Made by a program: the position numbers and the translations under genes. From assembly GCF_014863405.1 (NCBI RefSeq), contig NZ_JACZZA010000003.1:186001-250000 (forward strand): DNA of 64,000 bases, in the 5' to 3' direction. The stretch comes from Dyella acidiphila. Its GTDB lineage: Bacteria > Pseudomonadota > Gammaproteobacteria > Xanthomonadales > Rhodanobacteraceae. The notes below the pieces were generated by a model. The model was not told the DNA's origin, ran no database searches, and was given only the letters and a program-made list of their open reading frames with translations. Numbering within the stretch: position 1 is the first letter of the stretch; each line of letters starts with the position of its first letter. Shown here in pieces: positions 13,631-20,382 of this stretch.

Positions 13631-14191
13631 CTAATTGCCGCGCGATTCCACTCGCGCCACAAGTGCCAACGCCCCCGGATTCATCGTGATACGCCCGATC
13701 GAGCGCACCGGCAGCCATGCATCGCCCGGCTGCAGGCGTCCCTCGGAGGTATCGATATGGCCTTGCGCGCAATAGATCAGCACCACCGCATCGTCGACCA
13801 CCTGGCGGCCGGGCTCATCCCATACCACCAGTTCGCCGTGCACCTTCGACCGCCGCAGCATCAGATTGAAATCGCGGGTGGGACCGCCATTCAACGTGAC
13901 TTCCACCTGTGCTTCGCCGGCAAATGCAAACGGCGAGAACTTTGTGGCGAGCGCATGCATGCTGCCATCGTCGAGCTTCATCACGAAGCCTGCGCCTTCG
14001 AGCAAGGCGATATGCCGGTCGATACCCGGGAACGCCGAGAACGGCGCGGCGCTATCGACCTCGGCCACGCTTACGCGCCAGTCGAATTCGTCCATGCCGG
14101 CGCCGACCGGATGCACGGCGAGCTCGCGCGTGCGGCCCATGCCGTTTTTCCAGGGTGTTGCGACACACTCGCGCAAGCGGATGATGCTCAT
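13631..14191 (-). CDS. HutD/Ves-family cupin protein
   Basis: A 186-residue HutD-family protein, a bicupin fold. Family features are the start MSIIRLRECVATPWKNGMGRTRELAV, FDWRVSVAEVDSAAPFSAFPGIDR and the C-terminal DAWLPVRSIGR. HutD is associated with histidine utilisation in Pseudomonas, and Ves is its cold-responsive E. coli homologue. No hut genes are present here, so the role is open. The ATG at 14191 overlaps the dinG stop by four bases (ATGA), giving a dinG-hutD pair. Confidence 0.85.
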   Translation of the reverse strand: MSIIRLRECVATPWKNGMGRTRELAVHPVGAGMDEFDWRVSVAEVDSAAPFSAFPGIDRHIALLEGAGFVMKLDDGSMHALATKFSPFAFAGEAQVEVTLNGGPTRDFNLMLRRSKVHGELVVWDEPGRQVVDDAVVLIYCAQGHIDTSEGRLQPGDAWLPVRSIGRITMNPGALALVARVESRGN

Positions 14192-16290
14192 GCCGTACGC
14201 TCGATCACGCGTTGGAAAGGTGGCAACGCTTTTAGCATCTGGCTGCCGTACTGGCGCGTAACCACGCGGCGGTCGAGCAGCACGATGCGGCCGCGATCGG
14301 TTTCGCTGCGGATCAGGCGTCCGCAGTACTGGGTCAGCAGGCGCGTGGCTTCGGGTACCGCCACTTCGATAAAGGGATTGCGTCCGCGCGATTCCAGCCA
14401 CTCGGCATAGGTGGCGCCGACCGGATCGGTCGGTACCGCAAACGGCAGCTGCGTAATCACTACGGTTTCGCACAGCTTGCCGGGCAGATCCAGGCCTTCG
14501 CCGAAGGACGCCAGGCCGAACAGCGTGCTGCCCTTGCCGGCCTCGATCGCCGCGGTGTGTTCGGCGATCAACTGCGTCTTGCCGAGCGAGCCTTGCGCGC
14601 GCACCTTGCGCACCTTGTCGATCGGCAGCCGCTGCAGCACGCGCTCGAGCTTTGCGCGCGAGGTGAACAGCACCAGGTTGCCGGCGTCCCAGTCCAGATG
14701 TTCGGCCAGCCAGTCGGTAATTTCCTGGGCGTGCTGTTCGCGCGCATCGGGCATGGCGGCGATGGCCGGTACTTCCAGCCGCGCCTGCGCGTTCAGATCG
14801 AACGGCGAGGGCAGACTGATGGTGACGGCGTCGTCGGGCAGGCCTACCGCATCGGCGAAACCGCGAAAATTGCCGCCTGCACTGAGGGTGGCCGAGGTCA
14901 TCACCGCGGCGCTCGCGTTGTCCCACAGGATGTGGCGCAGCAAGGCGCCGGCCGATACCGCCGAGGCGTGACAGACCAGCTGCTGGTCGGGCGACAGCGT
15001 GACCCAGCGCGCCAGCGGCGGCAGGTGCTCGGGATCTTCGCCGGCCCACGCGCGCCAGGTACGCACCTGGCGGTCGATGCGCTCCAGCGCCATGCCCAGT
15101 TCGCGCGACAGCGCTTCCTGGGTAGGGCCGCCTTCGCTCATCTCGGTGACGGTACGGCGCACGGCGGTGAGCCAGCGCTGGATTTCCGCGCTGGCGAGAA
15201 ACAGCAGGTTGGCCTGCTGCACCCATTGCTCCGGCAGCTGTCCCAGCGAGCCGCGATACATCGGTTCGGTTTCGGCGGGATCGGGCAGCCAGGACTGGCG
15301 GATATCCTTTTCCAGCTCCTCCAGCGCGTTGCTCAGTTCCTGCAGTTTTTCATCGCCCACATCGAGCGTGAGCTTGCCGATCACTTCCTTGTCGGTCAGC
15401 GAATACGCCGCGTGCACCTGCCGCCCGAGCCGACTGATCTGGCGCACGGCATGGCCCAGTGCCACCTCCGACGCGCCGCGGTCGATGGTCTTGTTCGGCA
15501 TGTGGTGCGCTTCGTCGAACACGTACAGCGTTTCTTCCGGCTTGGGCAGGAATACGCCGCCCCAGCTTTCTTCACCACTGGATAGGGTGAGATCGGACAG
15601 CACCAGGTCCTGGTTGGCGACGATGATGTCCGCGTCGGCCACCGCGCGGCGCGCGGCGAAGAACGGACACAGCATGAAATGCCCGCAACGGCGGCCGGTG
15701 CAGCCGCCAGCGCTGGTGGTGATCAAGGCACGCAGCATGTCGCCCGGTGTTTCCGGCGCGGCATCCATGTCGCCGTTCCATTCATTGCGCTCGAACGCAT
15801 CGGTGAGCTTGCGCATCACCTGCTTGTCGCGCTCGGCCGGCGGCTTGCTCCACAAGGCCAGATCGTTGTCGAAACCCAGGCCCATCTGGTCGGCGCCGCC
15901 AAGGCTGCCGGCGGCCATCTGCAAGTTGCGCGGGCACAGATAACGTCCGCGGCCCTTGGCCAGCGCCACCTTGGCCTCGGTGCCGTTGAGCTTGAGATAA
16001 AGCGGGATATCGCGTTCGACCAGCTGTTCCTGCAAGGCCACCGTGGCGGTGGCGATCAGCAGCTTTTTCTTCTGCGCCCTGGCCACTTCGACACCGGCGA
16101 TCAGATAGGCCATCGATTTGCCGGTACCGGTCGGCGCTTCGATCACCGCCGCACCCGCTGGCTGCGCCAAGGCCTTGGCCACTTCGGCAATCATGCGCAG
16201 CTGCGCCGGCCGCCCGCGGAAGCCCGGCAGGCCATCCTTGATGCGCGTGTAGGCGCCACGGATGGCGTCCTTGGCAGTGTCGGTGAGCAT
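14188..16290 (-). CDS. dinG: ATP-dependent DNA helicase DinG
   Basis: A 700-residue XPD-like 5'-3' helicase, close to the 716 residues of E. coli DinG. The Walker A motif is EAPTGTGKSMAYLIA, and the iron-sulfur cysteines are in GRGRYLCP, then CTGRRCGHFMLCPFF. Motif II is DEAHH, motif III SATLS, with helicase C-terminal motifs including FGLASFGEGLDLPG and QYCGRLIRSETDRGR. It unwinds R-loops and D-loops and belongs to the DNA-damage response. The start MLTDTAKDAIRGAY at 16290 matches family N-termini; the longer frame adds an unrelated leader. No LexA box was identified. Confidence 0.96.
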   Translation of the reverse strand: MLTDTAKDAIRGAYTRIKDGLPGFRGRPAQLRMIAEVAKALAQPAGAAVIEAPTGTGKSMAYLIAGVEVARAQKKKLLIATATVALQEQLVERDIPLYLKLNGTEAKVALAKGRGRYLCPRNLQMAAGSLGGADQMGLGFDNDLALWSKPPAERDKQVMRKLTDAFERNEWNGDMDAAPETPGDMLRALITTSAGGCTGRRCGHFMLCPFFAARRAVADADIIVANQDLVLSDLTLSSGEESWGGVFLPKPEETLYVFDEAHHMPNKTIDRGASEVALGHAVRQISRLGRQVHAAYSLTDKEVIGKLTLDVGDEKLQELSNALEELEKDIRQSWLPDPAETEPMYRGSLGQLPEQWVQQANLLFLASAEIQRWLTAVRRTVTEMSEGGPTQEALSRELGMALERIDRQVRTWRAWAGEDPEHLPPLARWVTLSPDQQLVCHASAVSAGALLRHILWDNASAAVMTSATLSAGGNFRGFADAVGLPDDAVTISLPSPFDLNAQARLEVPAIAAMPDAREQHAQEITDWLAEHLDWDAGNLVLFTSRAKLERVLQRLPIDKVRKVRAQGSLGKTQLIAEHTAAIEAGKGSTLFGLASFGEGLDLPGKLCETVVITQLPFAVPTDPVGATYAEWLESRGRNPFIEVAVPEATRLLTQYCGRLIRSETDRGRIVLLDRRVVTRQYGSQMLKALPPFQRVIERTA

Positions 16291-16404
16291 GGATAGATAA
16301 GGTGCGAGGCGAAGCTGCTGCCCATTCTCGCATATCGGCGCCGGCACCCGCGGAGACCTGTTGCGTAGCCATGGCGGACAAGGCATGGCGCCTTGGCGGG
16401 GGCC

Positions 16405-17265
16405 TCAAGGTCGATGAGCCATATTCCAGCGCGCCCATAGATTCGACCAACCCATCCATTGCCCCGGGTAGCTGCGTACCAATTGGCTGAAGTAATCGTT
16501 GACTCGCTGGCTCGCCTGTTCACCCGACAGCGAACGAAGATCGAGGGCTTCACCGATATCCAGCACCTGGCTGCCGTCCCTATAGATCGATGCGGTAGGC
16601 ACCACGATCGCGCCGGCCCGTTGGCCCAGGCGGTACAGCGCTCCGGGTGATGCGGCCGGTTTGCCCAGGAAATCGGTATACAGGTCCGTGTCGGCGCCGT
16701 AATAGCAATCGAGCATGGTCGCCACGGTCCCCCCGCGCCCTAGCTGCCTGAAAATACGTAGCGCGACGGTACTCTCGGCGGATCCTACGACCTGGATGGG
16801 AAAGCCGCAGGCGAGCGAGATTTTCTCGAACAGTCGCAATCCTGGCCGCGGATCGCCGGCTGCGACGACCAGCAACTCTTTTACCCATCCCTTCATTGCC
16901 AGCAAGGCGAAGAACATGAAGCCGAAATACGAGCAGCCAAATAACAGTGGTCGCCCATCTTGGACATATCTGCGAACGGCTGCGTAGTTGATGTCGTGTT
17001 CGCAAATGGTGGGGGCGAGCTTGCCGATGTCATGCGGGTCGGCATGGGCAAGAAACATCTGGTCCGCCATGAATCTTGCGCGTACCAGGCTGATATCGCG
17101 CAGCGTTTTGCGTGAGTAATGGCCTGCCTGCCGCAATGCGCTTTCGGCATCTTGCAGATAGTGTGCATGCTCGTTCGAAGTATGGAGTTTCCGCGCTGCG
17201 ATTAGCGGCAATACATGGCGAGCAAGATGCGGGTGGTGCTTGATGAGCAAGGGGGCGAATTTCAA
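16405..17265 (-). CDS. LpxL/HtrB-type lysophospholipid acyltransferase homologue lacking the catalytic HX4D
   Basis: A 286-residue protein related to lipid A late acyltransferases. Recognisable family features are DFLGKPAASPGALYRLGQRAGA, the following VVPTASIYRDG, and the C-terminal YFSQLVRSYPGQWMGWSN. Where active enzymes have GGHFGNWE-like sequence with the catalytic His-X4-Asp/Glu, this protein reads GRPLLFGCSYFGFMFF, so the His is Ser and the acid is Phe. It is therefore probably a non-canonical or non-catalytic member. The start is uncertain: TTG at 17265 with AAGGA about six bases upstream fits; an open frame to 17415 would run through the hairpins and overlap the peptide gene. It follows the two GCPC mini-genes on the same strand. 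Confidence 0.7.
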   Translation of the reverse strand: MKFAPLLIKHHPHLARHVLPLIAARKLHTSNEHAHYLQDAESALRQAGHYSRKTLRDISLVRARFMADQMFLAHADPHDIGKLAPTICEHDINYAAVRRYVQDGRPLLFGCSYFGFMFFALLAMKGWVKELLVVAAGDPRPGLRLFEKISLACGFPIQVVGSAESTVALRIFRQLGRGGTVATMLDCYYGADTDLYTDFLGKPAASPGALYRLGQRAGAIVVPTASIYRDGSQVLDIGEALDLRSLSGEQASQRVNDYFSQLVRSYPGQWMGWSNLWARWNMAHRP

Positions 17266-17295
17266 AAATGTTTCCTTGTCGCTGGCATGTGTCGC

Positions 17296-17347
17296 GCAAT
17301 ACGCAGGTGCGTATTGCACGTGGCCAGCTATGCCGGCCACGTGCAAT
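17296..17347 (-). promoter_or_regulatory. Overlapping hairpins between GCPC peptide gene B and the acyltransferase-like gene
   Basis: Hairpin 1 has perfect 13-bp arms (17313-17325 and 17335-17347, 9-nt loop). Hairpin 2 has perfect 10-bp arms GCAATACGCA (17296-17305) and TGCGTATTGC (17308-17317). They share bases 17313-17317, so full formation of both is impossible. Read on the minus strand, hairpin 1 starts 12 nt after the peptide B stop and hairpin 2 comes next, about 30 bases before the proposed TTG start. No T-run follows, so this looks like an mRNA-processing or translational switch rather than a plain terminator; that is inference. Confidence 0.5.
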
Positions 17348-17359
17348 CCATACAGACAC

Positions 17360-17494
17360 TTACCAATGCATGGCGCAGCAGGGGCAGCCGACCCTGCTGG
17401 CCACGGTGTTTGCATGAGCGATCACCGGTAGCGACAAGGCGGCGACGCCGGCGAGTGACGCGATGCGGCGCCAGGTGTTTGCGAATAGCTTCAT
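17360..17494 (-). CDS. GCPC peptide precursor B (44 aa, signal peptide plus 16-residue peptide)
   Basis: A 44-codon gene starting ATG at 17494 with AGGAG six bases upstream and ending TAA. Residues 1-28 form a Sec-type signal peptide: MKLFANTWRRI, a hydrophobic core, then LPVIAHA. Predicted signal peptidase cleavage leaves NTVASRVGCPCCAMHW, a 16-residue peptide with three cysteines. It resembles the product of the upstream mini-gene (17553-17699) in length, in MKL-xAxxW-xx-hA start, in LPxIAxA cleavage region and in the R-(V)-GCPC motif. I know no named family. It could be a secreted metal-binding or signalling peptide or a modified (RiPP-like) precursor. Confidence 0.6.
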   Translation of the reverse strand: MKLFANTWRRIASLAGVAALSLPVIAHANTVASRVGCPCCAMHW

Positions 17495-17552
17495 GGAAAT
17501 CTCCTGATGTGTTTCGGCGTTTGCGCGGGATGCGAACGTCGGGCGACGATGA

Positions 17553-17699
17553 TCAGAACGCGCTCCAGCCCGTGTCCCAGCAAGGGCATCCACGTGCGGA
17601 AAGGGTGCTCGATGCTTGCGCAATGGCTGGCAAAGGCGTCGCAGCCACGCTTGCGGACAATGCAAGGTGGTGCCAGATCCTGGCGGGTAACTTCATCAT
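17553..17699 (-). CDS. GCPC peptide precursor A (48 aa, signal peptide plus 19-residue peptide)
   Basis: A 48-codon gene starting ATG at 17699 (or the adjacent ATG at 17696) with GGAGAA five bases upstream, stop TGA. It reads MMKLPARIWHHLALSASV, then AATPLPAIAQA, a signal peptide with a predicted AQA cleavage site. The mature part is SSTLSARGCPCWDTGWSAF, 19 residues. It is a paralogue of peptide B, 58 bp downstream. The conserved residues fall on both the leader and the GCPC core, which two chance frames would not show. A 90-codon frame covering the same DNA in another register was rejected in favour of this pair. Confidence 0.6.
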   Translation of the reverse strand: MMKLPARIWHHLALSASVAATPLPAIAQASSTLSARGCPCWDTGWSAF

Positions 17700-17824
17700 T
17701 GTTCTCCGTATCTAGCGATCGAATGAGGTTCGCGGCAGCAGGCTGCAGCCGCTCATCCAGCATTGCGATACGGTCTGTGCTTCACAATCGGAGAAGTGCG
17801 CGTACCCGGGTCGTTGTTCGCGGA

Positions 17825-17850
17825 AAGCTTGTAAGGCTTTTCTTAAGCTT
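17825..17850 (-). promoter_or_regulatory. Possible response-regulator box upstream of the GCPC peptide genes
   Basis: On the minus strand the sequence reads CTTAAG, six bases, CTTACA, within AAGCTTAAG...CAAGCTT. Two CTTAAG-like half-sites in direct orientation, about one helical turn apart, resemble PmrA/OmpR-family boxes. It lies about 130 bp upstream of peptide A in a locally A/T-rich stretch. The region 17700-17906 otherwise holds no gene I can support. Confidence 0.25.
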
Positions 17851-17906
17851 CACACTGTCGGCGTCGCATTCATGGAATCGCCACTACGTTTGCCATTCGA
17901 ACACTT

Positions 17907-19544
17907 TCAGGCTTTTGTGCCGATCGCCAGCGCTACCGCCTCTGCGATACGGATGCCGTCCACGCCGGCAGAAAGAATGCCGCCGGCATAACCGGCGCCT
18001 TCGCCGGCGGGAAACAAGCCGCGGGTGTTGAGGCTCTGGTAATCGTCGTCGTTGCGGCGGATGCGTACTGGTGAGGAGGTGCGTGTTTCCACGGCGGTAA
18101 AGATCGCATCGGGGCGACCGAAGCCCTTGATCTTGCGGTCGAAGGCCGGCATCGCTTCGCGGATGGCTTCAATCGCATAGTCCGGCAGTGCGCCGGCCAG
18201 GTCGGTGAGATGGACACCGGGCTTGTAGGAAGGTTGGACTTCGCCGAACGCGCTGGATGGCCGGCCGGCAAGAAAATCGCCGAGCAATTGCCCCGGCGCT
18301 TCGTACGTACCGCCGCCGAGTTCGAACGCGCGGCTTTCCCAATGGCGTTGCAGGGCGATGCCGGCAAGCGGGCTGCCGCTGTTGTCGTACGGCGTGAAAT
18401 CGGCCGGATCGATGCCGACCACGATGGCGGCATTCGCATTGCGCTCGTTGCGCGAATACTGGCTCATGCCATTGGTAACCACGCGGCCCGGTTCGCTGGT
18501 GGCGGCCACCACGGTGCCCCCGGGGCACATGCAGAAGCTGTAGACCGAACGCCCGTTGCGGCAGTGATGCACCAGCTTGTAGTCGGCGGCGCCGAGCAGC
18601 GGATGGCCGGCCTGCGGGCCGAAGCGGGCCTGATCGATCAGCGACTGCGGATGCTCCACGCGAAAGCCGATCGAGAACGGTTTGGCTTCCAGGTAGACGC
18701 CGCGCCGGTGCAGCATTTCCACGGTGTCGCGGGCGCTATGGCCAAGCGCGAGCACTACGTGGTCGGTGCGGATCTGCTCGCCGCTGGCCAGCATCACGCC
18801 GCGCACGTGGCGCGTGCCTTGTGCATCGGTCTCGACCAGCAAGTCGTCGACGCGCTGCTGGAAGCGGATCTCGCCACCCAGCGCCTCGATCGTGTTGCGC
18901 ATGTTTTCCACCATCGTCACCAGGCGGAAGGTGCCGATATGTGGCTTGCTTACATAGATGATTTCTTCCGGCGCGCCGGCCTTCACGAACTCGGTGAGCA
19001 CCTTGCGGCCGTAGTGGTGCGGATCGGAAATCTGGCTGTAGAGCTTGCCGTCGGAAAACGTGCCGGCGCCGCCTTCGCCGAATTGCACGTTCGACTCCGG
19101 ATGCAGGTTGCGCTTGCGCCACAGATCCCAGGTGTCCTTGGTGCGCTCGCGTACTGCCTTGCCGCGTTCGAGGATGATCGGGCGGAAGCCCATCTGCGCC
19201 AGCAGCAGGCCGGCGAACAGTCCGCAAGGGCCCAGGCCGATCACGACAGGACGATGTGCCGCTCCCTCCGACGCCTTGGCGACAAAGCGGTAGTCGGTGT
19301 CGGGGGTGGGACGTACATGCGGATCATCGGCAAAGCGCTGCAGCAGCTTTGCCTGGTCGGCAACCTCGACATCGAGCGTGTAGATCAGCTGGATGTTGCC
19401 GCGTTTGCGCGCGTCGTGGCCGCGGCGGAACACGCTATAGCTGCGGATAGCCTGGGCGCCGATATGCAGCTTGGCGCGGATGGCCGCGGGCAGCGCATCT
19501 TCGGCGTGATCCAGGGGCAGCTTGATATCGGTGAGTCGCAGCAT
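17907..19544 (-). CDS. FAD-dependent dehydrogenase of COG2509 type
   Basis: A 545-residue flavoprotein. An N-terminal alpha/beta domain (residues 1-90, RRGHDARKRGNIQLIYTLD) precedes the FAD-binding motif VVIGLGPCGLFAGLLLAQMG, followed by ILERG. Further family features are NVQFGEGGAGTFSDGKL, FCMCPGGTVVAATSEPG and the C-terminal LFPAGEGAGYAGGILSAGVDG, which contacts FAD. This family is widespread and described only as an uncharacterised FAD-dependent dehydrogenase; its substrate is unknown. Length and start (MLRLTDIKLPL) match the family. It is on the same strand as the peptide genes but 207 bp away. Confidence 0.9.
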   Translation of the reverse strand: MLRLTDIKLPLDHAEDALPAAIRAKLHIGAQAIRSYSVFRRGHDARKRGNIQLIYTLDVEVADQAKLLQRFADDPHVRPTPDTDYRFVAKASEGAAHRPVVIGLGPCGLFAGLLLAQMGFRPIILERGKAVRERTKDTWDLWRKRNLHPESNVQFGEGGAGTFSDGKLYSQISDPHHYGRKVLTEFVKAGAPEEIIYVSKPHIGTFRLVTMVENMRNTIEALGGEIRFQQRVDDLLVETDAQGTRHVRGVMLASGEQIRTDHVVLALGHSARDTVEMLHRRGVYLEAKPFSIGFRVEHPQSLIDQARFGPQAGHPLLGAADYKLVHHCRNGRSVYSFCMCPGGTVVAATSEPGRVVTNGMSQYSRNERNANAAIVVGIDPADFTPYDNSGSPLAGIALQRHWESRAFELGGGTYEAPGQLLGDFLAGRPSSAFGEVQPSYKPGVHLTDLAGALPDYAIEAIREAMPAFDRKIKGFGRPDAIFTAVETRTSSPVRIRRNDDDYQSLNTRGLFPAGEGAGYAGGILSAGVDGIRIAEAVALAIGTKA

Positions 19545-19659: not shown

Positions 19660-20307
19660 TCAACCTTCGGCGGCGACCTTCTGCAGAATCTCCTCGAACG
19701 CTTCCGGCGGCTGGCCACCCTGGATCAGATACTTTTCGTTGATGATCACCGAGGGTACGGCGCGGATGCCCTGCGACTGGTAGAAGCGCTCCTGCTCGCG
19801 CACTTCCTCGGCAAAGCGGTCGCTGTCCAGCAACTGGCGCGCCTGGGCGGCGTCCAGCCCGGCCTCGCCGGCCACGCGCGCCAGCACCTCATGCGAGCTG
19901 ACATTCTCGCCATGGCTGAAATAAGCCTGCAGCAAGGCTTCCTTCAGCGCCTGCTGCCGACCTTGCTCGCCGGCCCAGTGCAGCAGCCGGTGCGCATCGA
20001 AGGTGTTGTAGATGCGGCTGCGCTTGTCCATGTTGAAGGTGAAGCCCAGCGCTGCGCCGCGCTCGCGGATGCCAGCCTGGTTCTTGGTGATCTGCTCCGG
20101 CGTGCTGCCGTATTTGTGCGCCAGGTGCTCGGTGATGTCCTCGCCTTCCGGCACCATCTGCGGATTGAGCTCGAACGGCTGGAAATGCAGCTCGGCGCTG
20201 ACCGTGCCGTCCAGGTTCTTGAGCGCCTGCTCCAGCGATTTCAGCCCGACCGCGCACCAGGGGCAGACGACGTCGGATACAAAGTCGATTTTCAGGTGCT
20301 TGGTCAC
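19660..20307 (-). CDS. DsbA-family oxidoreductase, FrnE-like
   Basis: A 215-residue thioredoxin-fold protein of the FrnE/DsbA-like group. The active site is CPWC in IDFVSDVVCPWCAVG near the N-terminus, with an inserted helical domain and a cis-Pro loop IRAVPSVIINEKYLIQGGQ. FrnE-like proteins are usually cytoplasmic 2-hydroxychromene isomerase/disulfide isomerase relatives, and no signal peptide is seen here. The GTG at 20307 is preferred because it has a GGAGA site seven bases upstream and starts exactly at the family N-terminus; the open frame to 20358 adds unrelated residues. It follows the TonB receptor after a terminator. Confidence 0.9.
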   Translation of the reverse strand: MTKHLKIDFVSDVVCPWCAVGLKSLEQALKNLDGTVSAELHFQPFELNPQMVPEGEDITEHLAHKYGSTPEQITKNQAGIRERGAALGFTFNMDKRSRIYNTFDAHRLLHWAGEQGRQQALKEALLQAYFSHGENVSSHEVLARVAGEAGLDAAQARQLLDSDRFAEEVREQERFYQSQGIRAVPSVIINEKYLIQGGQPPEAFEEILQKVAAEG

Positions 20308-20382
20308 GGCGGCTCTCCGGTGGCGAAGGCCCGAAGATGGGGGCGCGGCCATGGCCAATCAATGCGACCCGGCCCCAAACAA

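Follow-up and report, generated by a model that had tools for sequence, protein, structure and literature searches.

The window analysed here, a stretch of 64,000 nucleotides, carries on its minus strand two very short genes, pep1 and pep2, separated by 58 bp. pep1 (17553..17699) encodes a 48-codon micropeptide precursor, directly read as MMKLPARIWHHLALSASVAATPLPAIAQASSTLSARGCPCWDTGWSAF, which ends in RGCPCWDTGWSAF. Its ribosome site is GGAG, and a further in-frame ATG lies one codon after the first. pep2 (17360..17494) encodes a 44-codon micropeptide precursor, read as MKLFANTWRRIASLAGVAALSLPVIAHANTVASRVGCPCCAMHW, with the ribosome site AGGAG and the end RVGCPCCAMHW. The initial annotation had proposed two overlooked mini-genes with ribosome sites on this strand, and direct reading confirmed both. 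They are followed on the same strand by a gene for an LpxL-like protein of 286 aa (16405..17265; TTG start). The three genes make up an insert of ~1.63 kb on the minus strand (approximate extent 16294..17927).

The micropeptide pair and its hairpins

When the whole genome was searched with pep2, pep1 was found with 48% identity over 44 residues (E=4.4e-6), and the remaining four of the six own-genome matches had E values of 0.48-0.63. Between pep1 and pep2, pN/pS was 0.50 in frame 0 vs 1.25 and 0.75 in the other frames. The peptide pair of Dyella marensis, described below, gave 0.43 in frame vs 1.30 and 0.87 in the other frames; 0-3 stop-containing codon pairs were skipped in the alternative frames. 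The leader is the best conserved part of the peptides, with a pN/pS of 0.40 in one paralogue pair and 0.32 in the other. Judging by these comparisons, pep1 and pep2 are a real paralogous gene pair, as had been claimed from their shared leader and core. As a check by synonymous and non-synonymous change, coding-frame constraint was evident within both paralogue pairs but weak across genomes: the frame control, which covered two of four cross-genome pairs, gave 0.71 in the coding frame (others 0.84 and 1.23) and 0.78 (others 0.74 and 1.46), so that in one pair an alternative frame scores lower. Neither peptide matched a Pfam family at E<=1 or an NCBIfam model, which agrees with the proposal that the micropeptide family is undescribed.

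Downstream of pep2 there is a perfect hairpin, CACGTGGCCGGC-ATA-GCTGGCCACGTG (17317..17343, minus strand), which starts 16 nt past the pep2 stop. A second small hairpin, CAATACGCA-CC-TGCGTATTG, lies at 17297..17316 on the same strand and was not seen in the folded segment of D. marensis. The 97-nt hairpin region of the window has a folding z of -4.9. The hairpins show no terminator-like site, and a sigma-70-like promoter was not found within 16250-18000. We read the hairpins as putative processing or partial-termination elements.

The LpxL-like partner and the insert

The LpxL-like protein matches Pfam Lip_A_acyltrans (PF03279) through its C-terminal part, residues 172-277 only (28.6 bits vs a cut-off of 22.3, E=1e-6), and scores below the cut-offs of all nine NCBIfam models listed. 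The H-x4-D/E dyad of the family is replaced in the window copy, which reads GCSYFGFMF. A profile search of 54 loci, 53 of which matched, was used for the dyad counts, and residues were tallied by eye from the alignment rows. All five intact copies of this type lack both dyad residues and carry GCSYFG or GCSNFG in the His loop and F or Y at the acid position. The N-terminal piece of a broken copy (G444 C1, below) also reads GCSNFGC. Among the other aligned homologues, His is kept in 46 of 47 and H-x4-D/E in 41 of 47, and five have H-x4-Q. One locus (L044, from G131) gave no alignment row, and another (L045, the second match of G051) lacks both His and acid at the aligned position. The three other Lip_A_acyltrans proteins in the window's genome all have H-x4-E. 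The alignment suggests that the partner forms a distinct branch with an invariant Cys-Ser in a GCS(Y/N)FG loop. The initial annotation had called the downstream gene on the same strand an acyltransferase homologue; its relation to Lip_A_acyltrans stands, but the catalytic dyad of that family is gone. Because the dyad is gone in all five intact copies, they are not expected to transfer acyl groups by the known mechanism. Its loss points either to a new mechanism, with the invariant Cys as the obvious candidate, or to a non-enzymatic role; to judge from these residues, the partner may not be an enzyme.

Compared with LpxL, LpxM and PatA, the partner is related over the C-terminal part, and PatA and LpxM are among the structural matches of its poor model; it differs in that H-x4-D/E has become Y/N and F/Y in the five intact copies. 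The structure model, built from the window and L047 sequences only, had a pLDDT of 48 and a pTM of 0.47, and the new loop could not be placed. With this poor model, the first Foldseek matches were SRP GTPases (TM about 0.3, rmsd above 15), and behind them came PatA (TM 0.35-0.43) and LpxM (TM 0.26-0.37), which gives weak support at most. A sequence search of the PDB with the partner gave a single, meaningless match (E 0.31).

The insert is flanked on the left by a gene for an FAD-dependent protein (17907..19544, minus strand) and on the right by a helicase gene (Helicase_C_2; 14188..16296, minus strand), which we take to be DinG-type; both are outside the cassette. In all ten same-genus genomes compared, the insert is missing and the two flanking genes are adjacent, with aligned blocks 17 to 81 bp apart vs ~1,630 bp in the window. 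The upstream FAD-protein gene was sought in 11 genomes, these ten and D. marensis. It was present in all ten, and D. marensis had no match to it at E<=1e-50. The GC content of the insert is 0.588 vs a window mean of 0.640, and 13 of 312 overlapping windows of the same size are equally low. Eight further frames within the insert or at its edges had no Pfam match, and the insert contains no recognisable gene for a protease or a transporter. A gene for a DSBA-like oxidoreductase (19660-20358, minus strand), presumably FrnE-type, lies upstream of the FAD-protein gene, and after it comes one for a TonB-dependent receptor with a carboxypeptidase-regulatory domain.

The partner gene was found in 1 of 16 genomes of the genus, which is the window's own. 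Lack of conservation in close relatives had been named as a finding that would speak against the peptide genes, and it is literally the case that none of the 15 other genomes has the enzyme; the cassette reappears, however, in D. marensis. The frames are missing from the close relatives because the whole insert is absent, leaving an empty site in 10/10 genomes, and not because the frames are broken.

Recurrence of the cassette

A partner search of 233 genomes of the family gave one other strong match, with 60% identity (E=4.6e-110), so that strong matches are rare (2/233). It lies in Dyella marensis (G086, NZ_FONH01000005.1; family Rhodanobacteraceae), which was counted as another genus than that of the window's genome. 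The D. marensis cassette sits between hemB (ALAD) and a tautomerase gene, a site different from that in the window, and shows the same order: two signal-peptide-like micropeptides, a hairpin and the partner. The micropeptides, both upstream of the partner, are MKFFMKAWSRFAPAVAIALFFVPLIAQASSDFHGQACSCGFDRPFKHCPC (L046:6833-6985) and MSFFKQAWGRFAPAAGIALFFVSWIAPASKSTQSRGCDCGDYNPIPTPF (L046:7289-7438). By sequence the Dyella peptide on its own reached no better than E=0.0875, and it was retained for its position next to the partner gene. The linkage of a micropeptide pair with an acyltransferase-like gene, part of the initial proposal, is supported by recurrence: the layout is found again in another genus and, in looser form, in another family. 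The cassette is rare and is probably a small mobile unit, and we infer that it was transferred horizontally as one unit.

All four peptides of the window and D. marensis share a hydrophobic leader that contains an invariant W, the residues IA-x-A ahead of the probable cleavage site, and the C-x-C motif. The Sec-like signal regions read LPAIAQA in pep1 and LPVIAHA in pep2. Read by eye, the signals would end at AIAQA-S and VIAHA-N, and those of D. marensis at LIAQA-S and WIAPA-S; none of the four shows a lipobox with Cys at +1. The export reading rests on Ala-x-Ala and the hydrophobic stretch, with hydropathy computed and sites judged by eye. Only the window and Dyella pairs have clear Ala-x-Ala sites; the three short peptides of the other-family loci lack clear cleavage sites. 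The mature part is hardly conserved outside CxC. pep2 carries GCPCC...W, and relatives read ACSC, GCDC, CVCFAW and WCTCW. The claim that GCPC followed by W is the conserved motif does not hold, as the ends of the relatives vary; the conserved element is C-x-C, which alone is shared.

A two-partner profile search reached another family of the order, with a match in G444 at E=2.9e-57 (4/398 genomes with matches, among them a partial, canonical match in G130). A draw around the family of G444 also gave G641 (7/395 genomes with matches, five of them partial and canonical). All 12 genomes of the genus of G444 have a match, and the strong full-length type is found only in G444 and G641. The genome draws overlap, so these counts are not to be summed. 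G444 and G641 have four further enzyme loci, two each, and a clean CxC micropeptide lies upstream in two of the four. In G641 C11 (L065) the order is MKHLISSFLAMFQAPASVTAGGPQATAFECVCFAW, a hairpin, a secreted-looking protein of ~247 residues without a Pfam match, and the partner. In G641 C42 (L066) it is MKTVISAIASLLAFREPVPTLTTDMCQLASGWCTCWVS (GTG start), a hairpin, a similar secreted-looking protein and the partner; the adjoining genes resemble, as we assume, those for a proton pyrophosphatase and a soluble pyrophosphatase. G444 C6 (L053) has MLSLVTFVLSLFGDAAVTVATSPLATSCPGGGWE, a hairpin, the partner, a PP-binding acyl carrier protein and a FabF-like ketosynthase, and its peptide has a single Cys and hence no CxC. 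G444 C1 (L054) shows a GGCTCWVW frame with no stop close by, a secreted-looking protein and a partner whose gene has a broken frame, and from its sequence it appears to be either a decaying cassette or an assembly error.

Several observations accompany these loci. At L053:4697-7309 there is a run of four genes, encoding a small ORF ending in CPGGGWE, the dyad-less LPLAT-like protein, the acyl carrier protein and the FabF-like ketosynthase. The partner frame of G444 C1 (L054:898-1760, minus strand) is broken near the contig start, beside the long GGCTCWVW frame. Secreted-looking proteins of ~230-250 residues lie between micropeptide and partner in three of the four other-family loci (L065:5249-5992; L066:6109-6843, minus strand; L054:1760-2461, minus strand). 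They are alike by eye, with conserved Cys; the three compared with Pfam and the two compared with NCBIfam gave no match. A frame at L065:3278-3940 (minus strand), about 1.1 kb upstream of the cassette in G641 C11, had no Pfam match at E<=0.001; we presume a resemblance to a REP-associated transposase.

Short frames of this kind might also be open merely by chance, in an intergenic stretch rich in GC. For upstream micropeptides we used a rule of 25-60 codons, with a ribosome site and with CxC among the 22 C-terminal residues, over a search range of 650 nt, within which only pep2 of the Dyella peptides falls. Frames of this kind were found in four of six loci (window, Dyella, G641 C11 and G641 C42), and in 22 to 57 of 2000 dinucleotide shuffles per locus (1.1-2.9%). 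Since the window and Dyella loci served to define the rule, it is fairly tested only by the four others, two of which follow it. In a peptide-only search, 45 of 233 family genomes matched at E<=0.1, and 30 loci were extracted, of which 29 were not the window's. As a control, these 29 loci from weak peptide matches had five short CxC-ended frames over the locus middle, none with a ribosome site, and the five were discarded. The own-genome matches L003-L006, together with L007 and L009, were read by eye, and only L006 was noted with a GCPC end; this frame is antisense to a long coherent frame and was taken as chance. GCPC also occurs in short unrelated frames of L019 and L032-L034. Such unrelated frames, one of them in the same genome, the shuffle rate and the lack of Pfam and NCBIfam matches speak for chance. 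It is nevertheless very improbable, given the similarity between the two frames (E=4.4e-6), the frame-specific pN/pS in both paralogue pairs, and the layout repeated in D. marensis and at two of the four other-family loci.

The class-level partner search matched 1/274 genomes, the window's own only. At phylum level 25/398 genomes matched at E<=1e-12; none of the other 24 scores above 64.8 bits, and His is kept in all 19 of them for which a locus was extracted. Family matches (G045, G051, G126, G130, G131, G143 and G174) and other-family matches (G449, G464, G486, G516 and G545) were partial, and canonical where aligned. Plasmids gave no match to the cassette DNA or the partner protein, viral contigs gave 20 pattern matches with no relative, and PADLOC defence models gave no match for six proteins at E<=0.01. 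The literature searched held no description of this cassette, a negative limited to that search.

Possible functions of the cassette

The cassette has precursor-like features: tandem copies, a conserved leader, a variable end, a hairpin and a partner gene. The genes lie together as an insert and their order returns at unrelated sites, so that a joint function is likely. We tentatively favour, with somewhat less than even confidence, a RiPP-like precursor-plus-partner cassette, horizontally acquired, for an exported and possibly acylated CxC peptide. The two tandem genes would be expressed as short precursors, in which the N-terminal leader doubles as a Sec-type signal and is followed by a variable C-x-C end of 16-22 residues. 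The hairpin behind the last precursor, a feature of all five loci folded, would lead to more precursor than partner mRNA. The LpxL-like protein would be the dedicated partner, an acyltransferase relative with a lost His-acid dyad and the invariant GCS(Y/N)FG loop, and it would hold an acyl group and pass it to the precursor. Acylation would most likely be on the cysteine thiol or on Ser/Thr of the core, before Sec export, and the product would have an extracellular role. An acyl-holding partner is proposed because of its acyltransferase kinship, the dyad loss, the invariant loop, and the acyl carrier protein and ketosynthase downstream in G444 C6, which point to acyl chemistry. Acylation is our leading guess, made from that one relative and from the ancestry of the partner.

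Known systems share parts of this layout. In bufferins and other MNIO-modified RiPPs, a Sec signal replaces the classic leader of a Cys-bearing exported precursor, whose gene precedes that of its partner (PMC12452194). The cassette likewise has a Cys-bearing precursor with a Sec-like signal ahead of a partner gene; however, the insert has no match to MNIO (PF05114), DUF2063 or DoxX, and its partner is LPLAT-like. Lipidated ribosomal peptides appear in the reports on DybA, a RiPP-lipoprotein hybrid (PMC12636315), and on nostolysamides, which are acylated lanthipeptides (PMC13060382). What the cassette has in common with them is the idea of a lipidated ribosomal peptide, here a proposal only; it differs from these systems in that it has no lipobox and its partner belongs neither with the MNIOs nor with the lanthipeptide enzymes.

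The best rival is that the micropeptides are cis-acting nascent-chain sensors resembling CutF and CruR, in which a metal or thiol state would be sensed during synthesis, and ribosome movement would open or close the hairpin and so control the downstream gene. In the reports on CutF (cutFOG, Rhodobacter) and CruR (Bordetella), a short ORF with a Sec signal and a Cys motif precedes a same-strand gene, with a stem-loop in CutF (PMC9973294, PMC9426467). The cassette has the same elements, a small signal-bearing Cys-motif ORF, a stem-loop and a downstream same-strand gene, so that it matches the CutF layout. The hairpin, 16 nt past the pep2 stop, also fits. Stem-loops that follow the last peptide and precede the next gene occur in all five loci folded (z of -4.9, -4.7, -3.5, -3.4 and -4.1 vs shuffles; segments picked by eye, G444 C1 left out). 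The stems of the window and D. marensis lie in the same place and have a common core with different outer pairs (two sequences only). The predicted mean unpaired probability of the next ribosome site is 0.00 in G444 C6 (fully paired), 0.16 in G641 C42 (strong masking) and 0.36 in the window (partial masking), which would suit a sensor. Masking is predicted to be no more than partial in G641 C11 and D. marensis (both 0.47), which speaks against one. Furthermore, CutF and CruR are described as DUF2946 proteins with CxxxC/CxxC and a proline-rich or RAPP end; the cassette peptides instead have CxC, with no Pfam match at E<=1 and hence no DUF2946, and pep1 and pep2 have no PP or RAPP end. The second Dyella peptide ends in NPIPTPF, also without PP. 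Some CutF-like proteins (CzcI) are described without the proline end (PMC9973294), so its lack is not fatal. CruR has 145 residues vs 44-50 in the cassette peptides, which are tandem-duplicated, and the next gene encodes a copper protein there and an LPLAT-like protein here. A cis leader would not be expected to occur as tandem precursors in two genera, and a signal-like leader as the best conserved part does not favour a sensor either. On balance we consider a sensor rather unlikely.

It is less probable still, and in our judgement unlikely, that the peptides act unmodified. They would then be exported CxC metal- or thiol-binding or membrane-active peptides, and the LPLAT-like protein, merely co-transferred, would act on a lipid or shield the producer's envelope. 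CxC is a motif that could plausibly bind soft metals or form disulfides, and with three other Lip_A_acyltrans proteins in the genome, housekeeping lipid A synthesis could do without the copy in the insert. The dyad loss, however, speaks against ordinary lipid A acylation, and peptide and partner recur jointly at unrelated sites, which suggests a joint task.

Returning to the precursor-plus-partner cassette, its boldest form is a new class of ribosomal lipopeptides, which for the present is doubtful. Here a dyad-less LpxL-like protein, with the GCS(Y/N)FG cysteine as an acyl relay, would S- or O-acylate tandem CxC micropeptides whose leader is the Sec signal, and a minimal unit of a few genes would move between genera. 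Genes of 44-50 codons are easily overlooked, and in our searches Pfam, NCBIfam and PADLOC gave no name to the peptides or to the subfamily of the partner. If the partner modifies the peptides, the cassette would bring a tailoring fold new to ribosomal peptides and would amount to a minimal system for an exported lipopeptide or metallopeptide. If instead the peptides regulate the partner, they would be a new nascent-chain sensor outside DUF2946.
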